Source: Tenacibaculum mesophilum (GTDB lineage: Bacteria; Bacteroidota; Bacteroidia; Flavobacteriales; Flavobacteriaceae). Taken from it: 64,000 nucleotides of DNA. Positions 43,557 through 60,763 of the stretch are shown piece by piece. Within the stretch, counting starts at the first letter, position 1, and each line of letters begins with the position of its first letter. Location: NCBI RefSeq assembly GCF_003867075.1, contig NZ_CP032544.1:2350001-2414000 (forward strand). The letters are read 5' to 3'. The position numbers and the translations under genes are program-made. Below the pieces are notes generated by a model. That model did no database searches. It was given only the letters and a program-made list of their open reading frames with translations, and had not been told where the DNA came from.

Positions 43557-43679
43557 ATCTAAGTATAAAAATACGTGTTTTAAGAGAGAATTTTAGTTAA
43601 AGATTTATTTAAACCCCTATTTTTCATTAATAATCCCCTTTAAATATGTTATTTGAAGAAAAAATAAGGATTTACCATA

Positions 43680-43756
43680 CCTTTTATAAGGGAAAAAAGA
43701 CGAAGAGTTTTTAAAGTTGAATTAAATTGCTGGTACTAATTTTAAAAACTTTAAAG
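43680..43756 (+). promoter_or_regulatory. Conserved 5' region of peptide gene 1
   Basis: Starts with CCTTTTATAAGG (43680-43691), followed by ACGAAGA (43700-43706) and an AT-rich leader. The last 57 bases match the 5' region of peptide gene 2 at 53 of 57 positions without gaps, and the distance from AAGG to ATG is 66 bases in both. No clear TAnnTTTG element, so a different promoter type or processing signal is possible. Confidence 0.5.
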
Positions 43757-43990
43757 ATGTTAAAAAACATTTCAAGCTTAGGTGTTTTACTTAATAAGGT
43801 AGCACAAAAAAACATAAAAGGAGGTTTCTTTTCAGGAAATAATGGATGTGATATTACAGGTTGTCATGAAAGGTATCCGGGAGGAAATGGATATGTAGGT
43901 TTTGGAGAAGGTAATCCATGTGCGTTTGATACACCGACAGGAATAAGTTGTACAGGGATTATACAAAATCATTTATGTTGTATAAGCTAA
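43757..43990 (+). CDS. Double-glycine-leader cysteine-rich peptide 1 (bacteriocin-like)
   Basis: 77 residues from ATG 43757. A 23-residue leader MLKNISSLGVLLNKVAQKNI ends in KGG, the cleavage signal used by C39-peptidase ABC exporters. The 54-residue core starts FFSGNN, is rich in glycine and has six cysteines (core positions 8, 13, 32, 42, 51, 52; the last two adjacent), enough for three disulfides. The leader matches that of peptide 2 at 15 of 23 positions. No exporter or immunity gene is recognised in the window. The longer ORF (43727) reads into the conserved leader RNA and is unlikely. Confidence 0.7.
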   Translation: MLKNISSLGVLLNKVAQKNIKGGFFSGNNGCDITGCHERYPGGNGYVGFGEGNPCAFDTPTGISCTGIIQNHLCCIS

Positions 43991-44119: not shown

Positions 44120-44965
44120 ATGAAACAACTAATTTTACCAGCATTATTTTTAATTACATTTAATGCTTTTTCTCAAAGTCCATGGACAAAAAATAAAAAT
44201 GAAGGATATCTTCAAGCTTCATTTACTACTATTGGAAGTTATGATAAAATCTATGGTAATCCAGACTACAAACCCCAACGAGAAATCACCGACAATACAG
44301 TACAACTGTACGGAGAATATGGTGTAACAGACAAAACAACACTATTTGCTAACATTCCTTTGAAAATGGTTAAAACAGGTGACTTTACTGAAGATATGTC
44401 TGTAATTTTTCCTTCTTTTACTATTGAAGAAACTTCTGAAACCTTATTAGGAAATATTCAATTAGGAATAAAACACAACTTTTCTAATAACAAATGGTTG
44501 TTATCAGGACAACTTTCTATTGAAGCGAATACAAGCAGTTATAAAGAAAATTCAGGAATACGAAGTGGCTATGATGCGTGGACATTCACACCGTTGTTTT
44601 TAACAGGAAGAGGTTTTGATTCATGGTATATACAAGCATTTACAGGATTTGATATTAGAACAAACGACTATAGCTCTAACTATAAATTAGGAGGAGAAGT
44701 TGGTTACAAAGCACTAAATTGGTTATGGGTAGCAGGATTTTTAGACGGTGTTGCCTCTTTAAAAAATGGAGACGTTATATTGCCTCAAGAAAATTTGGCT
44801 ACAGGTTTGTATGTAAACGATCAAAGCTATGCTGCCTTTGGATTAAAACTTATAGGTGAGTTCAATAAATCTTTTGGAGCTAATGTTGGTTTCGGAGGTG
44901 CTTTTGCGGGAAGAAATGTAGCTAAAGCTCCAGCATTGAGTTTTGGATTGTATCATAAGTTTTAA
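44120..44965 (+). CDS. Outer-membrane beta-barrel protein between the peptide genes
   Basis: A 281-residue protein with signal peptide (MKQLILPALFLITFNAFSQ), repeated amphipathic beta strands (DNTVQLYGEYGVTDKTTLFA; LLGNIQLGIKHNF; YKLGGEVGYKALNWLWVAGF) and a terminal aromatic residue (LYHKF), the usual mark of an outer-membrane barrel. It resembles the phenol-degradation MetA/transporter type of barrels; no substrate known. A TCCTTTTGTAAGGA hairpin (44067-44080) 40 bases upstream resembles elements before both peptide genes, so the three genes may share control. Confidence 0.75.
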   Translation: MKQLILPALFLITFNAFSQSPWTKNKNEGYLQASFTTIGSYDKIYGNPDYKPQREITDNTVQLYGEYGVTDKTTLFANIPLKMVKTGDFTEDMSVIFPSFTIEETSETLLGNIQLGIKHNFSNNKWLLSGQLSIEANTSSYKENSGIRSGYDAWTFTPLFLTGRGFDSWYIQAFTGFDIRTNDYSSNYKLGGEVGYKALNWLWVAGFLDGVASLKNGDVILPQENLATGLYVNDQSYAAFGLKLIGEFNKSFGANVGFGGAFAGRNVAKAPALSFGLYHKF

Positions 44966-44969
44966 AAAA

Positions 44970-45062
44970 GTAAGGCTTTTCCTTACATTTTGTAAGGTAA
45001 AATAAACGAAGAATTTTTAAAGTTAAATTAAATTGCTACTACTAATTTTAAAAACTTTAAAG
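44970..45062 (+). promoter_or_regulatory. Alternative hairpins and conserved 5' region of peptide gene 2
   Basis: GTAAGG (44970-44975), CCTTAC (44981-44986) and GTAAGG (44992-44997) can form either of two mutually exclusive hairpins. The first, ending in a T run, could terminate the barrel gene transcript; the second (7-bp stem 44981-44997) lies at the same distance from the ATG as the CCTT/AAGG element of peptide gene 1. ACGAAGA follows at 45006-45012 as in the other copy. Confidence 0.45.
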
Positions 45063-45215
45063 ATGTTAAAACACATTTCAAATTTAGGTACTACCTTAAA
45101 AAAGACAGAGCAGAAAAATATTAATGGAGGTTTCGGACTTACCAGGTGTAAATATGATCAAGACTGTCCAAGAAGAGATATGTATTGTTTTCATGGCTAC
45201 TGCCAGTATAAATAA
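45063..45215 (+). CDS. Double-glycine-leader cysteine-rich peptide 2 (bacteriocin-like)
   Basis: 50 residues from ATG 45063. Leader MLKHISNLGTTLKKTEQKNI ends in NGG; the 27-residue core begins FGLTRCKYDQDC and has four cysteines at core positions 6, 12, 19 and 24 (C-x5-C-x6-C-x4-C), a small disulfide-rich, basic peptide. The leader and 57 upstream bases are duplicated from peptide gene 1 while the cores are unrelated. A good terminator follows. Likely an exported antimicrobial or signalling peptide by analogy with GG-leader families; activity is inference. Confidence 0.7.
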   Translation: MLKHISNLGTTLKKTEQKNINGGFGLTRCKYDQDCPRRDMYCFHGYCQYK

Positions 45216-54283: not shown

Positions 54284-54393
54284 GTCATTTCGAGCGATAG
54301 CGAGAAATCTCTCTCAAGGGAGTCAGAAATACCTGTGAAAGTACCTAACACGCAATTTTAAGATTTCTCAGTCGTCACCTCCTTCGAAATGAC
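54284..54393. repeat. Family A palindromic repeat, copy 1
   Basis: 110 bases bounded by GTCATTTCGA and TCGAAATGAC (10-bp terminal inverted repeat) with inner GAGAAATCT and AGATTTCTC arms. It lies immediately upstream of the first GIY-YIG gene. Confidence 0.8.
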
Positions 54394-54425
54394 ACTAAAA
54401 AAATTATTCTATCTTTAAAAGAAAA

Positions 54426-54725
54426 ATGCTAAACAAATACGTTGTATACATCATTACAAACAAGAATAAAACTACATTGTATATTGGTGTTACCAACAAT
54501 CTTCAAAAACGATTATCTCAACATTATTTTGATAGCGAGCATGCTAAAAAATCATTTGCAGGAAAATATAATTGCTATTATTTGATTTATTATGAAGCTT
54601 TTGAAACGATAAACGAAGCAATTCACAGAGAAAAAGAATTAAAAAAATGGAGTAGAGAAAAGAAAGAAAACTTAATTAACAGTTTCAATCCTGAGTGGCG
54701 TTTTTTGAATAATGAAGTGTTTTAA
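54426..54725 (+). CDS. Single-domain GIY-YIG nuclease 1
   Basis: A 99-residue UvrC-N-type GIY-YIG domain protein with nothing else attached. Motifs: VYI at 7-9, YIG at 19-21, catalytic arginine R29 (GVTNNLQKRL), H33 and the metal glutamate E69 (AIHREKELKKW). It nicks DNA by family analogy. It is flanked on both sides by family A palindromic repeats in the same orientation (copies 1 and 2), with a further two copies after that. It could process or spread these repeats, which is an inference from position. Confidence 0.88.
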   Translation: MLNKYVVYIITNKNKTTLYIGVTNNLQKRLSQHYFDSEHAKKSFAGKYNCYYLIYYEAFETINEAIHREKELKKWSREKKENLINSFNPEWRFLNNEVF

Positions 54726-54733
54726 TTAATACT

Positions 54734-54842
54734 GTCATTTCGACCGAAGGGAGAAATCTCACTCACGAGAGTCAGAAACACTCTTGAAAGTACCCAACAC
54801 ACATCCATAAGATTTCTCAGTCGTCACCTTCTTCGAAATGAC
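54734..54842. repeat. Family A palindromic repeat, copy 2
   Basis: 109 bases with the same GTCATTTCGA/TCGAAATGAC ends, starting 8 bases after the GIY-YIG stop codon. Confidence 0.8.
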
Positions 54843-54851
54843 GTGTAAGTT

Positions 54852-54965
54852 GTCATTTCGACCGCAGGGAGAAATCTCACTCACGGGAGTTACAAATACA
54901 CTTGAAAGTGCTCAATACACAATTATAAGATTTCTCACTTCCGTTGCACTCCAGTTCGAAATGAC
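54852..54965. repeat. Family A palindromic repeat, copy 3
   Basis: 114 bases with the same ends, nine bases after copy 2. The spacer between the arms differs in sequence. Confidence 0.8.
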
Positions 54966-54986
54966 GTTGAAGTTGCATGGTGTCCT

Positions 54987-55057
54987 GTCATTTCGACCGC
55001 AGGGAGAAATCTTTTTAAAGAGAGTTACAAATACTCTTAAAAGCTACAAACACCCTT
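54987..55057. repeat. Family A repeat, copy 4, right end lost
   Basis: Has the left arm GTCATTTCGACCGCAGGGAG and the middle (agttacaaatac) but no right inverted arm. Confidence 0.6.
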
Positions 55058-55230
55058 ACAAACTCACACACAAATAAATAACCCTTGCCTCTCTCCTCTT
55101 TTTTTACTATGTTTAACACGCTAAAAAGTAAAAAGTAGTACTACCCCTTATCTCAACTATTTTTTTATTTAAAAAGTAATAACAAACACTTCTTTATGGA
55201 TTGCCGTAAAGAATAGTGATTGTTTATGTA

Positions 55231-55238
55231 TAAGTTTG
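55231..55238 (+). promoter_or_regulatory. Promoter -7 element for the AT-rich orphan gene
   Basis: TAAGTTTG, an exact TAnnTTTG match, 26 bases before the TTG start. The 55058-55230 stretch before it shows no gene. Confidence 0.55.
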
Positions 55239-55263
55239 ACTAAAACATAAAATAAATAATAAA

Positions 55264-56487
55264 TTGGGTATTGTTAAAAGAATAAGTGTTAGAGAAATTG
55301 ACGATTTAGATAAAGGAGTTGATTTAAAAGAGGCTTTTAAGTTAGTAGAGAACTTTGAACTTAAAGAAGAACTGATTAATAAGTTTGATATAGATTTAAA
55401 TGAAAACCCTTTTTTAAAAATAAAAGGAGCAAAGACTCTAGTTAATGCTTTATTAAGACTTGAAAAAAAAGTTTATAAATTTGATGTTGATACTGAAATA
55501 AGTAGCATTCATATAGGCAAGTATTATGACAAAAAAAGCATAGAAATTGAGTTGTTAAATTTAGCAGATGAGGACTTACTTAAAAGATATCAAGTAGATA
55601 GATTAACTTCTAAATCCTTTTATACCGTAAGAACAGATTTATTAGATGGTTTATATAAAGCAGATAAATTTCTTACCCACTTGAAATCAATTGAATTTGA
55701 GGAATTAATAGAGTCTACAATTGATAAACTAGAAGAGTTGAATAAAAATAATTCTAAGAAAATAAAATTGAGATTTTTGGAAGATGAAGAAGGAGAACTT
55801 TTTACTAGAGCTATAACATCAACTAGTGTATATAAAGATTATAACAATAATTTTTCTGTTTTTATGGCCTTGTTTCAACTTAATGCTCTAAATAAGTTAG
55901 GTTATTCTTTTGAAGTAGAACAATTTAGTTTTGACGATTCTGAAATTTATGTACTTTTTAGGCAAACAAACTCAACTCAAAAGATAGAAAAGGATGTCAC
56001 ACTTACATTTGCTTTAGAATTAACAAATAGTGAGATAAAAAGTAAAGCAGTTAAGCTTAACGGTAACTTTATAATTAACACTAAAAGAGGTGCTGTTTAT
56101 ACTAAAAACAATGTCAAAACTTCAGTTTTAAGTATAAGGCATGGGTACACAATAAGAAAGGCAAAGGATTATATAAATAGCTTACCTGATAACATAAGTC
56201 AGTATATTGCTGATTCAATAGATAATTATAAAAACATTAATAAACTTAAGAAGTTTGAAGATATTCAGAGTTTTTTATCCAAAAAAATTGATAAGTCAAA
56301 TAATGAGGAAATAAAAAAATATAAAACTAAACTTAAAAATACCTTAAAAGGTAGAGTTAATTCTTTAGTTGACTTATTAGAAAAAATGGATAAATTAGAA
56401 TCAATAATAGCTCATGAAGATATTAAGGCAATTGATTTCTTAAGAGAAAAAATTTATGATTCTTTAATAAAAAGAGGAAAGAATTAA
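55264..56487 (+). CDS. AT-rich orphan gene of unknown function, TTG start
   Basis: 407 residues, soluble, rich in Lys, Asn, Ile and Asp. Segments such as KSKAVKLNGNFIINTKRGA and VLSIRHGYTIRKAKDYI distantly recall DUF932-type proteins of mobile elements, but I would not assign that family. The C-terminus is coiled coil (KTKLKNTLKGRVNSLVDLLEK). Base composition is clearly more AT-rich than the next gene, mfd, and it lies directly after a repeat cluster, both consistent with acquisition by transfer. The only nearby start is TTG. Confidence 0.7.
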   Translation: MGIVKRISVREIDDLDKGVDLKEAFKLVENFELKEELINKFDIDLNENPFLKIKGAKTLVNALLRLEKKVYKFDVDTEISSIHIGKYYDKKSIEIELLNLADEDLLKRYQVDRLTSKSFYTVRTDLLDGLYKADKFLTHLKSIEFEELIESTIDKLEELNKNNSKKIKLRFLEDEEGELFTRAITSTSVYKDYNNNFSVFMALFQLNALNKLGYSFEVEQFSFDDSEIYVLFRQTNSTQKIEKDVTLTFALELTNSEIKSKAVKLNGNFIINTKRGAVYTKNNVKTSVLSIRHGYTIRKAKDYINSLPDNISQYIADSIDNYKNINKLKKFEDIQSFLSKKIDKSNNEEIKKYKTKLKNTLKGRVNSLVDLLEKMDKLESIIAHEDIKAIDFLREKIYDSLIKRGKN

Positions 56488-56526
56488 GTTAGCAGTATAG
56501 AACTTTAACCGTTACCCCCAATATAT

Positions 56527-56534
56527 TATCTTTG
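56527..56534 (+). promoter_or_regulatory. Promoter -7 element for mfd
   Basis: TATCTTTG, an exact TAnnTTTG match, 18 bases before the TTG start. Confidence 0.6.
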
Positions 56535-56551
56535 CTCAAAATTTTTGTACG

Positions 56552-59500
56552 TTGAGCAAGCAAGCAATTGTAAATCACTATCAACAATCTGAAAATGTAA
56601 AACAGATTGTTCATCAGCTTCAACAAGATCCACACCATTTTCAACTAACGAATTTGGTCGGTTCTTCGTTGTCTTTTGTCATTTCCGAAACTTTTAAACA
56701 AGCCGATAAACCCTACTTGTTAATTTTTAACGACAAGGAAGAAGCTGCTTATTATCTAAACGATTTAGAGCAGTTATTGGGCGATAAAAACGTGCTGTTT
56801 TATCCGGGTTCGTATCGCAGACCGTACCAGATTGAAGAAACCGACAATGCCAATGTACTGCTACGTTCAGAGGTGTTAAACCGTATCAATTCTCGTAAAA
56901 AACCTGCGATTATTGTTACTTACCCTACTGCCCTGTTCGAAAAAGTAGTCACCAAAAAAGAACTGGAAAAAAACACGCTAAAAGTGGTGGTGGGCGAGCA
57001 AGTATCGCTCGATTTTGTCAACGAAGTATTATTCGAATACCATTTTAAACGTGTCGATTTTGTAACCGAACCAGGAGAGTTTTCGGTACGTGGTGGAATT
57101 ATCGACGTGTTTTCGTTTTCACACGACGAACCCTATCGTATTGAGTTTTTTGGTGATGAGGTAGACAGCATCCGAACTTTTGATGTAGAAACGCAACTTT
57201 CTAAAGAAAAACTGAAGAAAGTGAGCATTATGCCCAATGTAGAAAACAAAACACTACAAGAAAGCAGAGAAAGCTTTTTAAAATACATATCAGCAAAAAC
57301 CGCTGTTTTCGTTAAGAATTTAGATTTACTAAGTGATTCACTAGATAAATTCTATCGAAAAGCAGAACTATCGTTTAACGAATTATCTACCGAAATCAAA
57401 CACGCAAAACCAGAAGAATTGTTTTGCAACGGAGAACTCATACGTAATCAACTACAAGATTTTACAACGGTTGACATTGGTAAAAACCGTCATTCTGAAC
57501 GAAGTGAGAAACCGCAAGGTTCAGCGGAGCTAAATCTCACTAACGTAAGCATCAACTTCGATACCCACCCACAACCGTCTTTCAACAAAAAATTCGACCT
57601 GTTAATTCAGAATTTCAATGAGTTTTCGGCCAAAGGATTTACCAATTATATTTTATGTTCTAACGAACAGCAAGCACAACGTTTCCACGATATTTTTGAC
57701 GACCATGAAGAAGAGGTTTCTTATGAAACCATTGTGTTTCCGTTGTATCAAGGATTTGTGGATATTGATAGCAAAATTGTTTGTTATACTGATCATCAAA
57801 TCTTTGAGCGTTATTACAAATTCCGACTCAAAAACGGATACGCGAAAAAGCAATCCATCACCCTACAAGAGCTCACCAAATTAGACGTAGGCGACTATGT
57901 AACACATATCGACCACGGTATTGGAAAGTTTGGCGGACTTCAAAAAATAGATGTAGAAGGCAAAAAACAAGAGGCCATTAAGTTAATTTATGGCGATCGC
58001 GATATTTTATACGTGAGTATTCACTCGCTACACAAAATTTCCAAATTCAACGGAAAAGACGGAAAACCGCCTAAAGTATATAAACTAGGGTCGAATGCTT
58101 GGAAAAAAGTCAAGCAAAAAACCAAAGCCCGTGTAAAACATATTGCGTTCAACTTAATTCAGTTATACGCAAAACGAAAACTACAAAAAGGATTTGCTTT
58201 CGGACCCGACACGCATATGCAACACGAGTTGGAAGCGAGTTTCTTATACGAAGACACACCCGATCAGTTCTCTTCTACCCAAGAAGTAAAAGCTGATATG
58301 GAAAAAGAACAACCGATGGATCGTTTGGTGTGTGGTGATGTTGGTTTTGGAAAAACAGAAATTGCCATTAGAGCGGCTTTTAAAGCGGTAGATAACGGAA
58401 AACAGGTTGCGGTGCTTGTACCAACTACAGTTTTAGCATTTCAGCACTTTAAAACCTTTTCTAAGCGATTAAAAGACTTTCCGGTTACGATTGACTACCT
58501 AAACCGTTTTAGAACCACAAAACAGCGCAAAGGCGTGTTAGAAGGGGTTGCTGATGGAAGTGTAGATATTGTGATAGGAACACACCAGTTAACCAATAAA
58601 GCAGTTCAGTTTAAAGATTTGGGATTATTGGTTATTGATGAGGAACAAAAATTCGGGGTAGCAGCGAAAGATAAGCTAAAAACGATTAAGGAAAATGTAG
58701 ATACATTGACCTTAACAGCAACACCAATCCCGCGTACTTTACAGTTTAGTTTGATGGCGGCGCGTGATTTATCGGTAATTAAAACACCACCACCCAACCG
58801 TCACCCCATAGAAACCAACGTGATTCGCTTTAGTGAAGAAACCATTCGCGATGCGATTTCGTACGAGATTTCTCGTGGTGGACAGGTGTTTTTTATCCAT
58901 AACCGTATTGAAAACATCAAAGAAGTAGCAGGATTGTTACAACGTTTGGTGCCAAGTGCAAAAATTGGCATTGGACACGGACAAATGGAAGGAAAAAAGT
59001 TAGAAGAACTCATGCTTGGTTTTATGAACAATGAGTTTGATGTGTTGGTGTCTACCACGATTATTGAAAGTGGATTGGATGTACCGAATGCGAATACGAT
59101 TTTCATCAACAATGCGAATAATTTCGGACTGTCGGATTTACACCAAATGCGTGGTCGTGTAGGGCGTTCAAACAAAAAAGCCTTCTGTTATTTTATCACA
59201 CCACCGTATCATCATATGACCGATGATGCACGTAAACGAATTCAGGCATTAGAGTTGTTTTCTGATTTAGGAAGCGGATTGAACATTGCCATGAAGGACT
59301 TAGAGATTCGTGGTGCTGGAGATTTATTAGGTGGAGAACAAAGCGGATTTATCAACGATATTGGTTTTGATACCTATCAGAAAATCTTACATGAAGCCAT
59401 TGAAGAACTCAAGGAAAATGAATTCAAAGACTTATATCCTACGGATGAAAATGCGCCAAAAGAGTATGTAAAAGAGGTACAAATTGATACCGATTTTGAA

Positions 59501-59926
59501 ATTCTATTCCCAGATGATTATGTGAATTCAGTTACCGAACGTTTGAGTTTATACAACAAATTAGGAACTTTAACTACGGAAGAGGAATTACAAACCTTTG
59601 AGACTGAAATTATCGACCGTTTTGGAGAATATCCAACCCAAGTTGCCGATTTATTAGACAGTGTTCGTATTAAATGGTTGGCAAAAGAATTAGGTTTAGA
59701 AAAGGTGATTTTAAAGCAAAAACGCATGTTAGGGTATTTTGTATCCGATCAGCAAAGTGCTTTTTATCAAACTGAATCATTTACCAAAATGTTGAGGTAT
59801 GTACAGCAAAATCCGAAGAGTTGTGTAATGAAAGAAAAGAAAACCAAAAACGGATTGCGCTTACTCATCACGTTTATTAAAATTGATAGTGTACACAAGG
59901 CGTTAGAAACCTTACAGAAAGTATAA
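56552..59926 (+). CDS. mfd: Transcription-repair coupling factor Mfd, with a repeat-derived insert
   Basis: A 1124-residue DNA translocase that removes stalled RNA polymerase and recruits UvrA. N-terminal UvrB-homology part, RNA-polymerase-interaction region (DVGDYVTHIDHGIGKFGGLQ), Walker A GDVGFGKT at 595-602, DEEQ at 696-699 and the TRG region, then a C-terminal D7. The start is TTG: the N-terminal homology begins there and no ATG is near. Residues 313 to about 335 (RHSERSEKPQGSAEL onwards) look like a translated palindromic repeat inserted in frame into the N-terminal half. Confidence 0.94.
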   Translation: MSKQAIVNHYQQSENVKQIVHQLQQDPHHFQLTNLVGSSLSFVISETFKQADKPYLLIFNDKEEAAYYLNDLEQLLGDKNVLFYPGSYRRPYQIEETDNANVLLRSEVLNRINSRKKPAIIVTYPTALFEKVVTKKELEKNTLKVVVGEQVSLDFVNEVLFEYHFKRVDFVTEPGEFSVRGGIIDVFSFSHDEPYRIEFFGDEVDSIRTFDVETQLSKEKLKKVSIMPNVENKTLQESRESFLKYISAKTAVFVKNLDLLSDSLDKFYRKAELSFNELSTEIKHAKPEELFCNGELIRNQLQDFTTVDIGKNRHSERSEKPQGSAELNLTNVSINFDTHPQPSFNKKFDLLIQNFNEFSAKGFTNYILCSNEQQAQRFHDIFDDHEEEVSYETIVFPLYQGFVDIDSKIVCYTDHQIFERYYKFRLKNGYAKKQSITLQELTKLDVGDYVTHIDHGIGKFGGLQKIDVEGKKQEAIKLIYGDRDILYVSIHSLHKISKFNGKDGKPPKVYKLGSNAWKKVKQKTKARVKHIAFNLIQLYAKRKLQKGFAFGPDTHMQHELEASFLYEDTPDQFSSTQEVKADMEKEQPMDRLVCGDVGFGKTEIAIRAAFKAVDNGKQVAVLVPTTVLAFQHFKTFSKRLKDFPVTIDYLNRFRTTKQRKGVLEGVADGSVDIVIGTHQLTNKAVQFKDLGLLVIDEEQKFGVAAKDKLKTIKENVDTLTLTATPIPRTLQFSLMAARDLSVIKTPPPNRHPIETNVIRFSEETIRDAISYEISRGGQVFFIHNRIENIKEVAGLLQRLVPSAKIGIGHGQMEGKKLEELMLGFMNNEFDVLVSTTIIESGLDVPNANTIFINNANNFGLSDLHQMRGRVGRSNKKAFCYFITPPYHHMTDDARKRIQALELFSDLGSGLNIAMKDLEIRGAGDLLGGEQSGFINDIGFDTYQKILHEAIEELKENEFKDLYPTDENAPKEYVKEVQIDTDFEILFPDDYVNSVTERLSLYNKLGTLTTEEELQTFETEIIDRFGEYPTQVADLLDSVRIKWLAKELGLEKVILKQKRMLGYFVSDQQSAFYQTESFTKMLRYVQQNPKSCVMKEKKTKNGLRLLITFIKIDSVHKALETLQKV
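57488..57545. repeat. Palindromic-type repeat inside mfd
   Basis: CGTCATTCTGAACGAAGTGA followed by GAAACC and later CTAAATCTCAC resembles the dispersed GTCATT repeats of this region and of related genomes. It is 57-58 bases and keeps the reading frame. Confidence 0.6.
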
Positions 59927-59928
59927 AA

Positions 59929-59952
59929 CGTCATTTCTCGCTCGCAATGACG
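59929..59952. repeat. Short CGTCATT/AATGACG hairpin after mfd
   Basis: CGTCATT and AATGACG surround a 10-base loop, three bases after the mfd stop. It looks like a collapsed repeat and may also terminate transcription. Confidence 0.45.
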
Positions 59953-59963
59953 GTACAAAGAAG

Positions 59964-60084
59964 TTGTCAGTTCGAGTGGTTTTCACGATTGGAATGAGTG
60001 AAAATTGTATCGAGAACTAGTTTGTATACATCTCGATACAAATTTCTTCCTTCTATCGAAAAAGAAATTCACTCGATGTGACAA
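59964..60084. repeat. Family B palindromic repeat, copy 1
   Basis: 121 bases bounded by TTGTCAGTTCGAGTG and CACTCGATGTGACAA (imperfect inverted ends, 13 of 15), with an inner TTGTATCGAG/CTCGATACAA stem. It lies upstream of the second GIY-YIG gene. Confidence 0.8.
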
Positions 60085-60185
60085 TGTAAACTCATAACCA
60101 AAATATGGGCACGCTACTTCAGCAATAAAGGAATAAAGAATTGTCATTTTTGTAAAAAGTAACTAGTTTGTTGAAAAATTTTAAA

Positions 60186-60479
60186 ATGAAAATATACTTT
60201 GTTTACATATTACAATGTTCAGATAAAAGTTATTATACAGGAGTAACTTCCAACCTTTCTCAACGAATATTTCAGCACCAAAACGGAACTTTTAAAGATA
60301 GTTACACTTCAAAAAGAAGACCTGTTGAATTGGTTTTTTATTGTGAGTTTACTAATGTAGAAATGGCTATTGAAAAAGAAAAACAAATTAAAAAATGGTC
60401 AAGATCAAAAAAAGAAGCTCTTATAAATAACGAGTTTGAAAAACTACCGAACTTAGCAAAGAAGAAGTTTAATAATTAA
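60186..60479 (+). CDS. Single-domain GIY-YIG nuclease 2
   Basis: 97 residues from ATG 60186 (a TTG at 60168 would add six). Motifs VYI 6-8, YTG 17-19 (the YIG position), R27, H31, E63 and the same C-terminal KKWSRSKKEALI as in nuclease 1. Overall sequence differs from the first copy, so these are paralogues, not a recent duplication. It is flanked by two nearly identical same-direction copies of family B repeats, about 100 bases upstream and 3 bases downstream of the gene. Confidence 0.88.
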   Translation: MKIYFVYILQCSDKSYYTGVTSNLSQRIFQHQNGTFKDSYTSKRRPVELVFYCEFTNVEMAIEKEKQIKKWSRSKKEALINNEFEKLPNLAKKKFNN

Positions 60480-60482
60480 GCT

Positions 60483-60601
60483 TTGTCAGTTCGAGTGGTT
60501 TTCACGATTGGAATGAGTGAAAATTGTATCGAGAACTAGTCTATACATCTCGATACAAATTTCTTTCCTCTATCGAAAAAGAAATTCACTCGATGTGACA
60601 A
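60483..60601. repeat. Family B palindromic repeat, copy 2
   Basis: 119 bases, nearly identical to copy 1 (a 2-base indel and a few substitutions in the middle), same orientation, starting three bases after the GIY-YIG stop. Confidence 0.8.
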
Positions 60602-60683: not shown

Positions 60684-60763
60684 GTCATTTTGAGCGGTAG
60701 CGAGAAATCTCATTCAATTGAGTAACTCATCTTCTTAAGATTTCTTCCTCTGGTTGAAATGAC
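60684..60763. repeat. Family A palindromic repeat, short divergent copy
   Basis: 80 bases with GTCATTTTGA and TTGAAATGAC ends and AGAAATCT/AGATTTCT arms; a shorter family A copy 15 bases before the EamA gene. Confidence 0.65.

Follow-up and report, generated by a model that had tools for sequence, protein, structure and literature searches.

Single-domain GIY-YIG nucleases and their tagged palindromes: a candidate mobile pair in Tenacibaculum and beyond

What is a small nuclease gene doing between two copies of a palindromic repeat? The question is raised twice by the stretch of the Tenacibaculum mesophilum chromosome analyzed here (hereafter the window: 64,000 nucleotides, positions 2350001-2414000 of a one-contig chromosome of 3,344,078 bp, or 3.34 Mb), in which two genes for single-domain GIY-YIG nucleases, nuclease 1 and nuclease 2, are each bracketed by palindromes of a different family, A and B (Table 1). 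The original prediction, made from the letters of the window, had named these two genes and four repeat copies and took them for a nuclease/cognate-repeat system spreading small palindromes. Genes and repeats lie where it had placed them, and copies A1 and A2 do bracket nuclease 1, but family A is not limited to two copies, as the repeats run on as an array with a third copy, A3, and a partial fourth, A4. Our reading, to which we give a probability of roughly 60%, is that a single-domain GIY-YIG nuclease and a YGTC-tagged palindrome may form a cognate mobile pair, moved by the nuclease together with host repair; it is drawn from comparison of sequences. That the two are associated, and specifically so, is a more general matter, and we hold it to be real and general with very little doubt.

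Pairing of nuclease and palindrome within the genus

Both window proteins match the PF01541 profile (nuclease 1, 67.7 bits, 1.1e-18; nuclease 2, 65.0 bits, 7.6e-18; cut-off 22.6), and no further domain was found in either of these 97-99 aa proteins. The whole genome gave one other match at E <= 0.01, of 52 bits, in a 607-aa frame that is presumably UvrC. Y7, Y17, G19, R27, H31 and E65 are invariant across 28 aligned GIY-YIG proteins, the window pair among them, and these conserved Tyr, Tyr-x-Gly, Arg, His and Glu positions we take to be the catalytic residues of the superfamily. A whole-genome profile search for the Y1_Tnp transposase (PF01797), the enzyme of the REP-associated tyrosine transposases (RAYT; REP, repetitive extragenic palindrome), returned 0 matches.

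Each palindrome copy consists of two inverted halves, and each half starts with a TGTC (or CGTC) tag followed by a hairpin. Folded with RNA parameters, A1 and A2 each form a single long hairpin (-28.0 and -32.7 kcal/mol); the corresponding energies of B1 and B2, which are 97% alike in both aligned halves, are -45.9 and -44.1 kcal/mol. In the left half of family A the TGTC tag is followed by a 5-bp outer stem, ATTTC/GAAAT, a GA opposite GA and a short inner stem, and in family B the outer stem, AGTTC/GAACT or ACATC/GATGT, leads into a GA/GA step as in A; this pairing was read from the sequence, the energy model pairs some bases otherwise, and the right half of A folds differently when taken alone. 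Around the GIY-YIG genes of the genus (within 350 bp) there are 180 distinct tagged hairpins with a 5-bp stem, 69 of them with GA/GA and 66 with GA/AA, and the density of GA/GA hairpins falls from 0.85 per kb near the genes to 0.06 per kb beyond a distance of 600 bp at the same loci. The ends read YGTCA almost throughout the aligned palindrome families.

A genome-wide search, which the original prediction had called for, found 35 matches to the family A pattern GTCATTTCGA in 18 clusters (reversed control, 15), one of which holds nuclease 1, and 17 matches to the family B pattern GTCANNTCGAGTGNNTTT in 10 clusters (reversed control, 0), one of which holds nuclease 2. The zones within 300 bp of A and B matches make up 0.43% and 0.24% of the genome, and both single-domain genes fall within them, each near its own family. 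Clusters mixing A and B motifs occur on the G000 chromosome at 1421468-1422880 and 1435272-1436692, with no GIY-YIG match listed there. Family B also forms tandem arrays in other genomes (G068:C1 1730925-1731619, period about 171-176 bp; G077:C1 913662-914637, period 195 bp), and their regularity suggests expansion by repair or unequal recombination.

The pairing is not peculiar to the window. When 97 genomes of the genus, T. mesophilum included, were searched for PF01541, 96 had matches, and from the matches listed a sample weighted to the better-scoring ones was drawn; long frames, and several that were fragmentary or near contig ends, were omitted by eye. Besides the window, the first analysis took in 109 loci (L051-L079, the 29 supplied by the search, together with 80 stretches), with 118 GIY-YIG frames in all, of which 115 were distinct genes with enough flank for the repeat test; 117 genes were labelled by repeat family. 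The direct-repeat score from flank to flank had a median of 40 for the 115 genes versus 14 for 2776 random control segments, and exceeded the 90th percentile of the controls (19) for 72 of them but the 99th (93.25) for only 32, the latter being high, we infer, because some control segments sit in repeat arrays or other duplications. The same end-motif family was present on both sides of 55 of the 117 genes, compared with 17 of 2314 segments serving as controls; a motif of any family was present at 70 of the 117 versus 299 of the 2314, with families defined from the GIY-YIG flanks themselves, a reach of 300 bp, and controls that are mostly coding where the GIY-YIG flanks are mostly intergenic. 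Repeats are thus commoner beside these genes than elsewhere, as anticipated. At 53 loci the gene has its family motif on either side at a distance of up to 160 bp; it sits in the palindrome loop (X>gene<X) at 19 of these and between complete palindromes, as in the window, at 16, and the other 18 are mixed. Tandem duplicates of gene plus repeats were seen at L146 and L083.

The type of repeat follows the subtype of the nuclease, which the original prediction had proposed as a test. On a maximum-likelihood tree of 116 nucleases, built from a short alignment that leaves many forks poorly supported, the repeat labels need 14 changes, versus a mean of 63.3 for shuffled labels (0 of 200 shuffles as low), with 1 change for label C (19 rows), 2 for D (17), 2 for B (12) and 3 for A (9). 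Since kinship of loci could mimic such a match, loci were grouped by homologous flanking open reading frames (ORFs) into 34 contexts, and the closest labelled nuclease from a different context still shared the repeat family in 59 of 70 cases (shuffled mean 13.2, maximum 25, 500 shuffles). Because the families had been drawn from the same flanks, 16 later-fetched loci, taken without context filter, served as a hold-out; 14 of them had a motif, which agreed with the prediction in 10, and where the nearest labelled nuclease was at least 70% identical the call was correct in 8 of 10. The four loci where it failed read E vs A (56% identity), C vs E (82%), G vs E (78%) and B vs G (48%).

Table 1. 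Features of the two loci and their surroundings (window coordinates)
Feature	Position	Strand	Description
Nuclease 1	54426..54725	+	99-aa single-domain GIY-YIG, type A; PF01541
Nuclease 2	60186..60479	+	97-aa single-domain GIY-YIG, type B; PF01541
Family A palindrome A1	54284..54393		110 bp; ends TGTCATTTCGA...TCGAAATGACA
Family A palindrome A2	54734..54842		109 bp
Family A palindrome A3	54852..54965		array continues past A2
Family A partial copy A4	54987..55043		end coordinate approximate
Family B palindrome B1	59964..60084		121 bp; TTGTCAGTTCGAGTG...CACTCGATGTGACAA
Family B palindrome B2	60483..60601		119 bp
Further GTCA-type palindrome	60684..60763		GTCATTTTGAGCGG...GAAATGAC; not intact at the same place in G027
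CGTC-tagged REP-like insertion, in frame within mfd	57488..57550	+	RHSERSEKPQGSAE; end approximate

The insertion within mfd has counterparts elsewhere. Among 30 mfd loci, that of the window included, a pattern was readable in 17, and several carry other REP-like peptides in the same loop (for example RHAELDSASH and RHSELVSESQ) while some have none by eye; the loop is apparently a recurrent REP insertion point. Between the family A array and mfd, the segment 55237-56531 holds a 407-aa ORF with no Pfam match and does not align in the two relatives compared, G055 and G027, making it a variable cargo slot beside the array. Farther away, a direct repeat of 170 nt, 81% alike, occurs at 43659-43828 and 44965-45134, near which G055 has additional small peptide genes sharing a similar start sequence.

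Pairing outside the genus

In a tblastn search of plasmid records, 33 matched a type-D nuclease; the flanks of ten of these, chosen for variety, were read by eye and without a control. Nine of the ten loci have tagged palindromes on both sides, the tag being decayed at one of them (Aeromonas, L219), and the Photobacterium locus (L223) has a palindrome on a single side. A pair of inverted hairpins encloses the gene in Rhizobium (L224), Shinella (L226), Novosphingobium (L225) and Sphingobium (L228). On a Planktothrix plasmid (L220) the gene and its palindromes sit between a type IIL restriction enzyme gene and the DISARM gene drmA.

A wider scan of genome contigs used the best 80 of 554 confirmed relatives, many of them from metagenome bins and, by record title, many from Alphaproteobacteria, with others from Gamma- and Deltaproteobacteria, Patescibacteria, Anaerolineae, Scalindua, Omnitrophota, Nitrospirae and Ignavibacteria. 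Here the rule was fixed (GTC plus a stem of at least 8 bp, a loop of 3-10 nt, within 200 bp of the gene), and the controls were the flanks of 160 ORFs from the same loci, 4 of the 80 loci having less than 150 bp of flank on one side. A tagged hairpin was found at 51 of the 80 GIY-YIG genes versus 19 of the 160 ORFs, on both sides at 26 versus 2, and in the X>gene<X arrangement at 20 versus 1.

A mobile pair and the alternatives to it

How could such a pair move? The nuclease would recognize the tagged hairpin of its own family, probably as an extruded hairpin or cruciform, and would cut at or near the tag. GIY-YIG enzymes hydrolyze DNA without a covalent intermediate, and the break would therefore be joined by host repair from another copy rather than by the enzyme. 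Palindromes and nuclease gene would in this way be copied by gene conversion or template switching, leading to homing into, or conversion between, palindromes and occasionally to copying to new sites. The autonomous unit would be either tagged hairpin, gene and inverted tagged hairpin, or palindrome, gene and palindrome, and the gene-free palindromes would be its non-autonomous passengers. A model of one nuclease (mean predicted local distance difference test score, pLDDT, 78.5; C-terminus poor) has UPF0213 structures as its closest folds (E 5.5e-6 and 2.6e-3) and then Slx1 (from 9.9e-3), with one PDB match at E <= 0.001. Slx1 is a nuclease of branched DNA, and an Slx1-like fold would fit a hairpin or cruciform substrate.

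Alleles with and without the gene exist at single sites. G055 is 90-96% identical to the window in all aligned blocks except the A array, yet it lacks the gene and carries a single B palindrome in place of B1, gene and B2. Since G027, which is more distant than G055, has the gene (98% protein identity), gain and loss (in G055, through recombination of B1 with B2) are equally likely; the window, G055 and G027 differ by presence or absence, with flanks that have decayed. At one site on Sphingobium plasmids the gene-in-palindrome form is found in L228, L317 and L318; L313 and L315 lack the gene but have a tagged hairpin, solo and of the same type in sequence; and L314 and L316 have neither form, though each of these has a different, untagged hairpin. 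In Azospirillum lipoferum sufB and sufC are separated by a palindrome-gene-palindrome unit, and neither the gene nor a tagged palindrome is present at that site in A. oryzae, A. ramasamyi, strain B510 or A. argentinense; its absence from these four relatives suggests a gain in A. lipoferum. The protein itself is under purifying selection, as follows from ratios of non-synonymous to synonymous substitution rates (dN/dS) of 0.02-0.11 in nine chosen pairs of orthologs or near-orthologs (0.06-0.08 for nuclease 1 against three relatives; 0.02 and 0.06 for nuclease 2 against two).

The number of repeats also goes with the enzyme. The type-B nuclease (called at E <= 1e-33) is present in 21 of the 97 genomes, where the median density of B motifs is 7.78 per Mb (minimum 3.20, n = 21) versus 0.93 (maximum 21.9, n = 76) in the remainder (p = 3.5e-10), and the density is still higher with the nuclease when the comparison is confined to genomes that are at least 90% complete and have no Y1_Tnp (6 versus 26 genomes, p = 0.002), these p-values ignoring the kinship between genomes. 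That neglect is one of several points that weigh against a mobile pair. Some genomes have many B motifs and no type-B nuclease (57 in G008, 53 in G036), and in G011 and G078, which count among the 21 with a type-B gene, the match is interrupted by stops. No defined motif family was found within 300 bp of 47 of the 117 genes of the genus, and 29 of the 80 cross-phylum genes lack a tagged hairpin under the strict rule. Label G is scattered on the nuclease tree, with 5 changes for 7 rows. Y1_Tnp was found in 46 of the 97 genomes (E <= 0.001), and among those at least 90% complete B motifs are denser with it than without (4.8 versus 2.0 per Mb, p = 0.012), an association that we cannot separate from lineage. 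Finally, no target rule or consistent target-site duplication emerged among 191 palindromes collected by motif rules (30+33+34+91+3), and no clean insertion junction was found in three Sphingobium stretches of 50 kb (two pairs) or by an automatic scan of 131 palindromes.

Sequence matches across the element do occur: 4-mers matched in 3.7% (shuffled mean 1.1%, maximum 3.1%) and 7-mers in 1.0% (shuffled maximum 0.5%), and by family 3-mers in 17% of A and 4-mers in 8% of C. A general target-site duplication was nevertheless rejected, as matching k-mers are too few and may stem from tandem arrays. One possible empty-site case, L051 versus L064, is ambiguous. The original prediction is supported, in that neither of the two results that it had named as refuting came about; the spreading of palindromes that it proposed is putative, no clean junction having been obtained.

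The palindromes could instead spread by other means, with the nuclease a homing parasite matched to its target that cuts palindromes and inserts beside or into them. Alleles with a solo palindrome and with palindrome plus gene resemble homing into a pre-existing repeat, and motif-rich genomes devoid of the type-B nuclease are in its favor, as are the arrays free of GIY-YIG genes in T. mesophilum itself, where only one of the 18 family A clusters holds the gene. We consider this unlikely, since the density of B motifs tracks the cognate nuclease, since the known REP enzyme, Y1_Tnp, was not found in 51 of the 97 genomes, T. mesophilum included, and since the G055 allele, given the gene in the more distant G027, may have arisen by loss. 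It could also be that the nuclease is a domesticated housekeeping enzyme that processes hairpins or cruciforms and limits palindrome damage, its proximity to them reflecting a shared regulatory or local role, in line with the strong purifying selection and a fold near that of Slx1. Such a role accords poorly with the patchy presence of the gene (type B in 21 of 97 genomes), with tandem duplicates of gene and repeats, and with a gene inside the palindrome and its subtype specificity, and we find it improbable. RAYT/REP pairs offer a known precedent for a third possibility, that a RAYT (Y1) or other transposase moves the palindromes and the GIY-YIG genes are passengers, and the higher B-motif density in the more complete genomes with Y1_Tnp is in its favor; we judge it very improbable, because Y1_Tnp was found neither in T. 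mesophilum nor in five other type-B genomes with 8-41 motifs, because nuclease subtype matches repeat type, and because repeats of the CGTC kind are reported to have no association with transposase genes (PMC3733652). RAYT as sole mover was rejected, given 0 PF01797 matches in T. mesophilum and matches in 46 of the 97 genomes. Inheritance of a few old gene-plus-repeat loci hardly remains tenable, for although many loci are syntenic among relatives (L078, L082, L106 and partly L098 and L113, with the window) and the 117 genes are spread over no more than 34 contexts, with just 4 for the 18 of type D, the correspondence persists when only different contexts are compared and the pairing recurs with other repeat sequences in other phyla.

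Known systems and what the pair would mean

The candidate mobile pair is best read as functionally like the RAYT (TnpA-REP) systems with their GTAG-tagged REPs and REPINs, but with an unrelated enzyme. An enzyme gene flanked by its own tagged palindromes, dispersed inverted pairs, and a repeat type that follows the enzyme subtype are common to both. However, the RAYT enzyme is of the Y1/HUH type (PF01797) and its tag is GTAG, whereas here the enzyme is GIY-YIG (PF01541) and the tag YGTC, so that neither the tag nor the nearby tyrosine transposase by which RAYT systems are defined is present. Free-standing GIY-YIG homing endonucleases, for example of the phage Seg type, likewise have a small gene and alleles with and without it at one site, but the target here is a dispersed palindrome family rather than a unique site, and no intron or intein was seen. 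The UPF0213 single-domain GIY-YIG proteins (PDB 1ywl, 1zg2) are similar in size and fold; those are listed as hypothetical proteins, and the ones described here are tied to repeats.

The repeats themselves have closer relatives. Di Nocera 2013 (PMC3733652) describes REPs with a CGTC tag (often TGTC or CCTC), stems of 8-9 bp starting with AT, loops of 4-5 nt and tails like CCA, which are mostly dimers, some being the dRS3 of Neisseria and the RPE-6/RPE-4 of Rickettsia, and which occur in Proteobacteria, Chlorobi, Bacteroidetes, Spirochaetes and Thermotogae. By that account these REPs "apparently lack a dedicated transposase" and have no association with transposase genes, and the question of their enzyme is left open there. 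Many GIY-YIG loci outside the genus fit the description, with CGTC or TGTC, a stem of at least 8 bp mostly starting with AT or AC, a short loop and often inverted pairs; A. lipoferum, which is on the species list of that report, has CGTC-ATCCCCGC-GAAG-GCGGGGAT-CCA. The stem is also as described in type-D examples of the genus and in many of the best 80 of 554 cross-phylum loci. The window families share the tag, TGTC or CGTC at one end, but differ from the published stem in that only 5 bp make up the outer stem, GA faces GA and the interior is longer; they are a variant of the TGTC kind whose stem is interrupted. Among the GIY-YIG loci of the genus the usual arrangement is an inverted pair whose tags point outward, which may correspond to the head-to-head dimers in which the published CGTC REPs mostly occur. 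A literature search, covering few subscription journals and no preprints, returned no link between GIY-YIG and REP among the papers listed, and the REP papers in one listing had no mention of GIY-YIG.

We see about an even chance that the enzymes so far missing from the CGTC REP superfamily, those that make it mobile across bacteria, are GIY-YIG nucleases, and that about 400 bp would suffice for a complete self-copying element, in which a nuclease gene of some 100 codons is set between a tagged hairpin and its inverted counterpart and a purely hydrolytic cut followed by host repair takes the place of a transposase. Such an element, if real, would rank with the smallest autonomous mobile elements known. 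A candidate enzyme would be at hand for CGTC-type palindromes from Rickettsia and Neisseria to Bacteroidetes, and the subtype-matched repeats make it testable in vitro. The pairing would also suggest a function for a large family of proteins of about 100 aa that are publicly annotated as 'GIY-YIG nuclease family protein' or 'excinuclease ABC subunit C'. And if the reading is correct, selfish elements of the REP type would have arisen at least twice, on unrelated enzymes.

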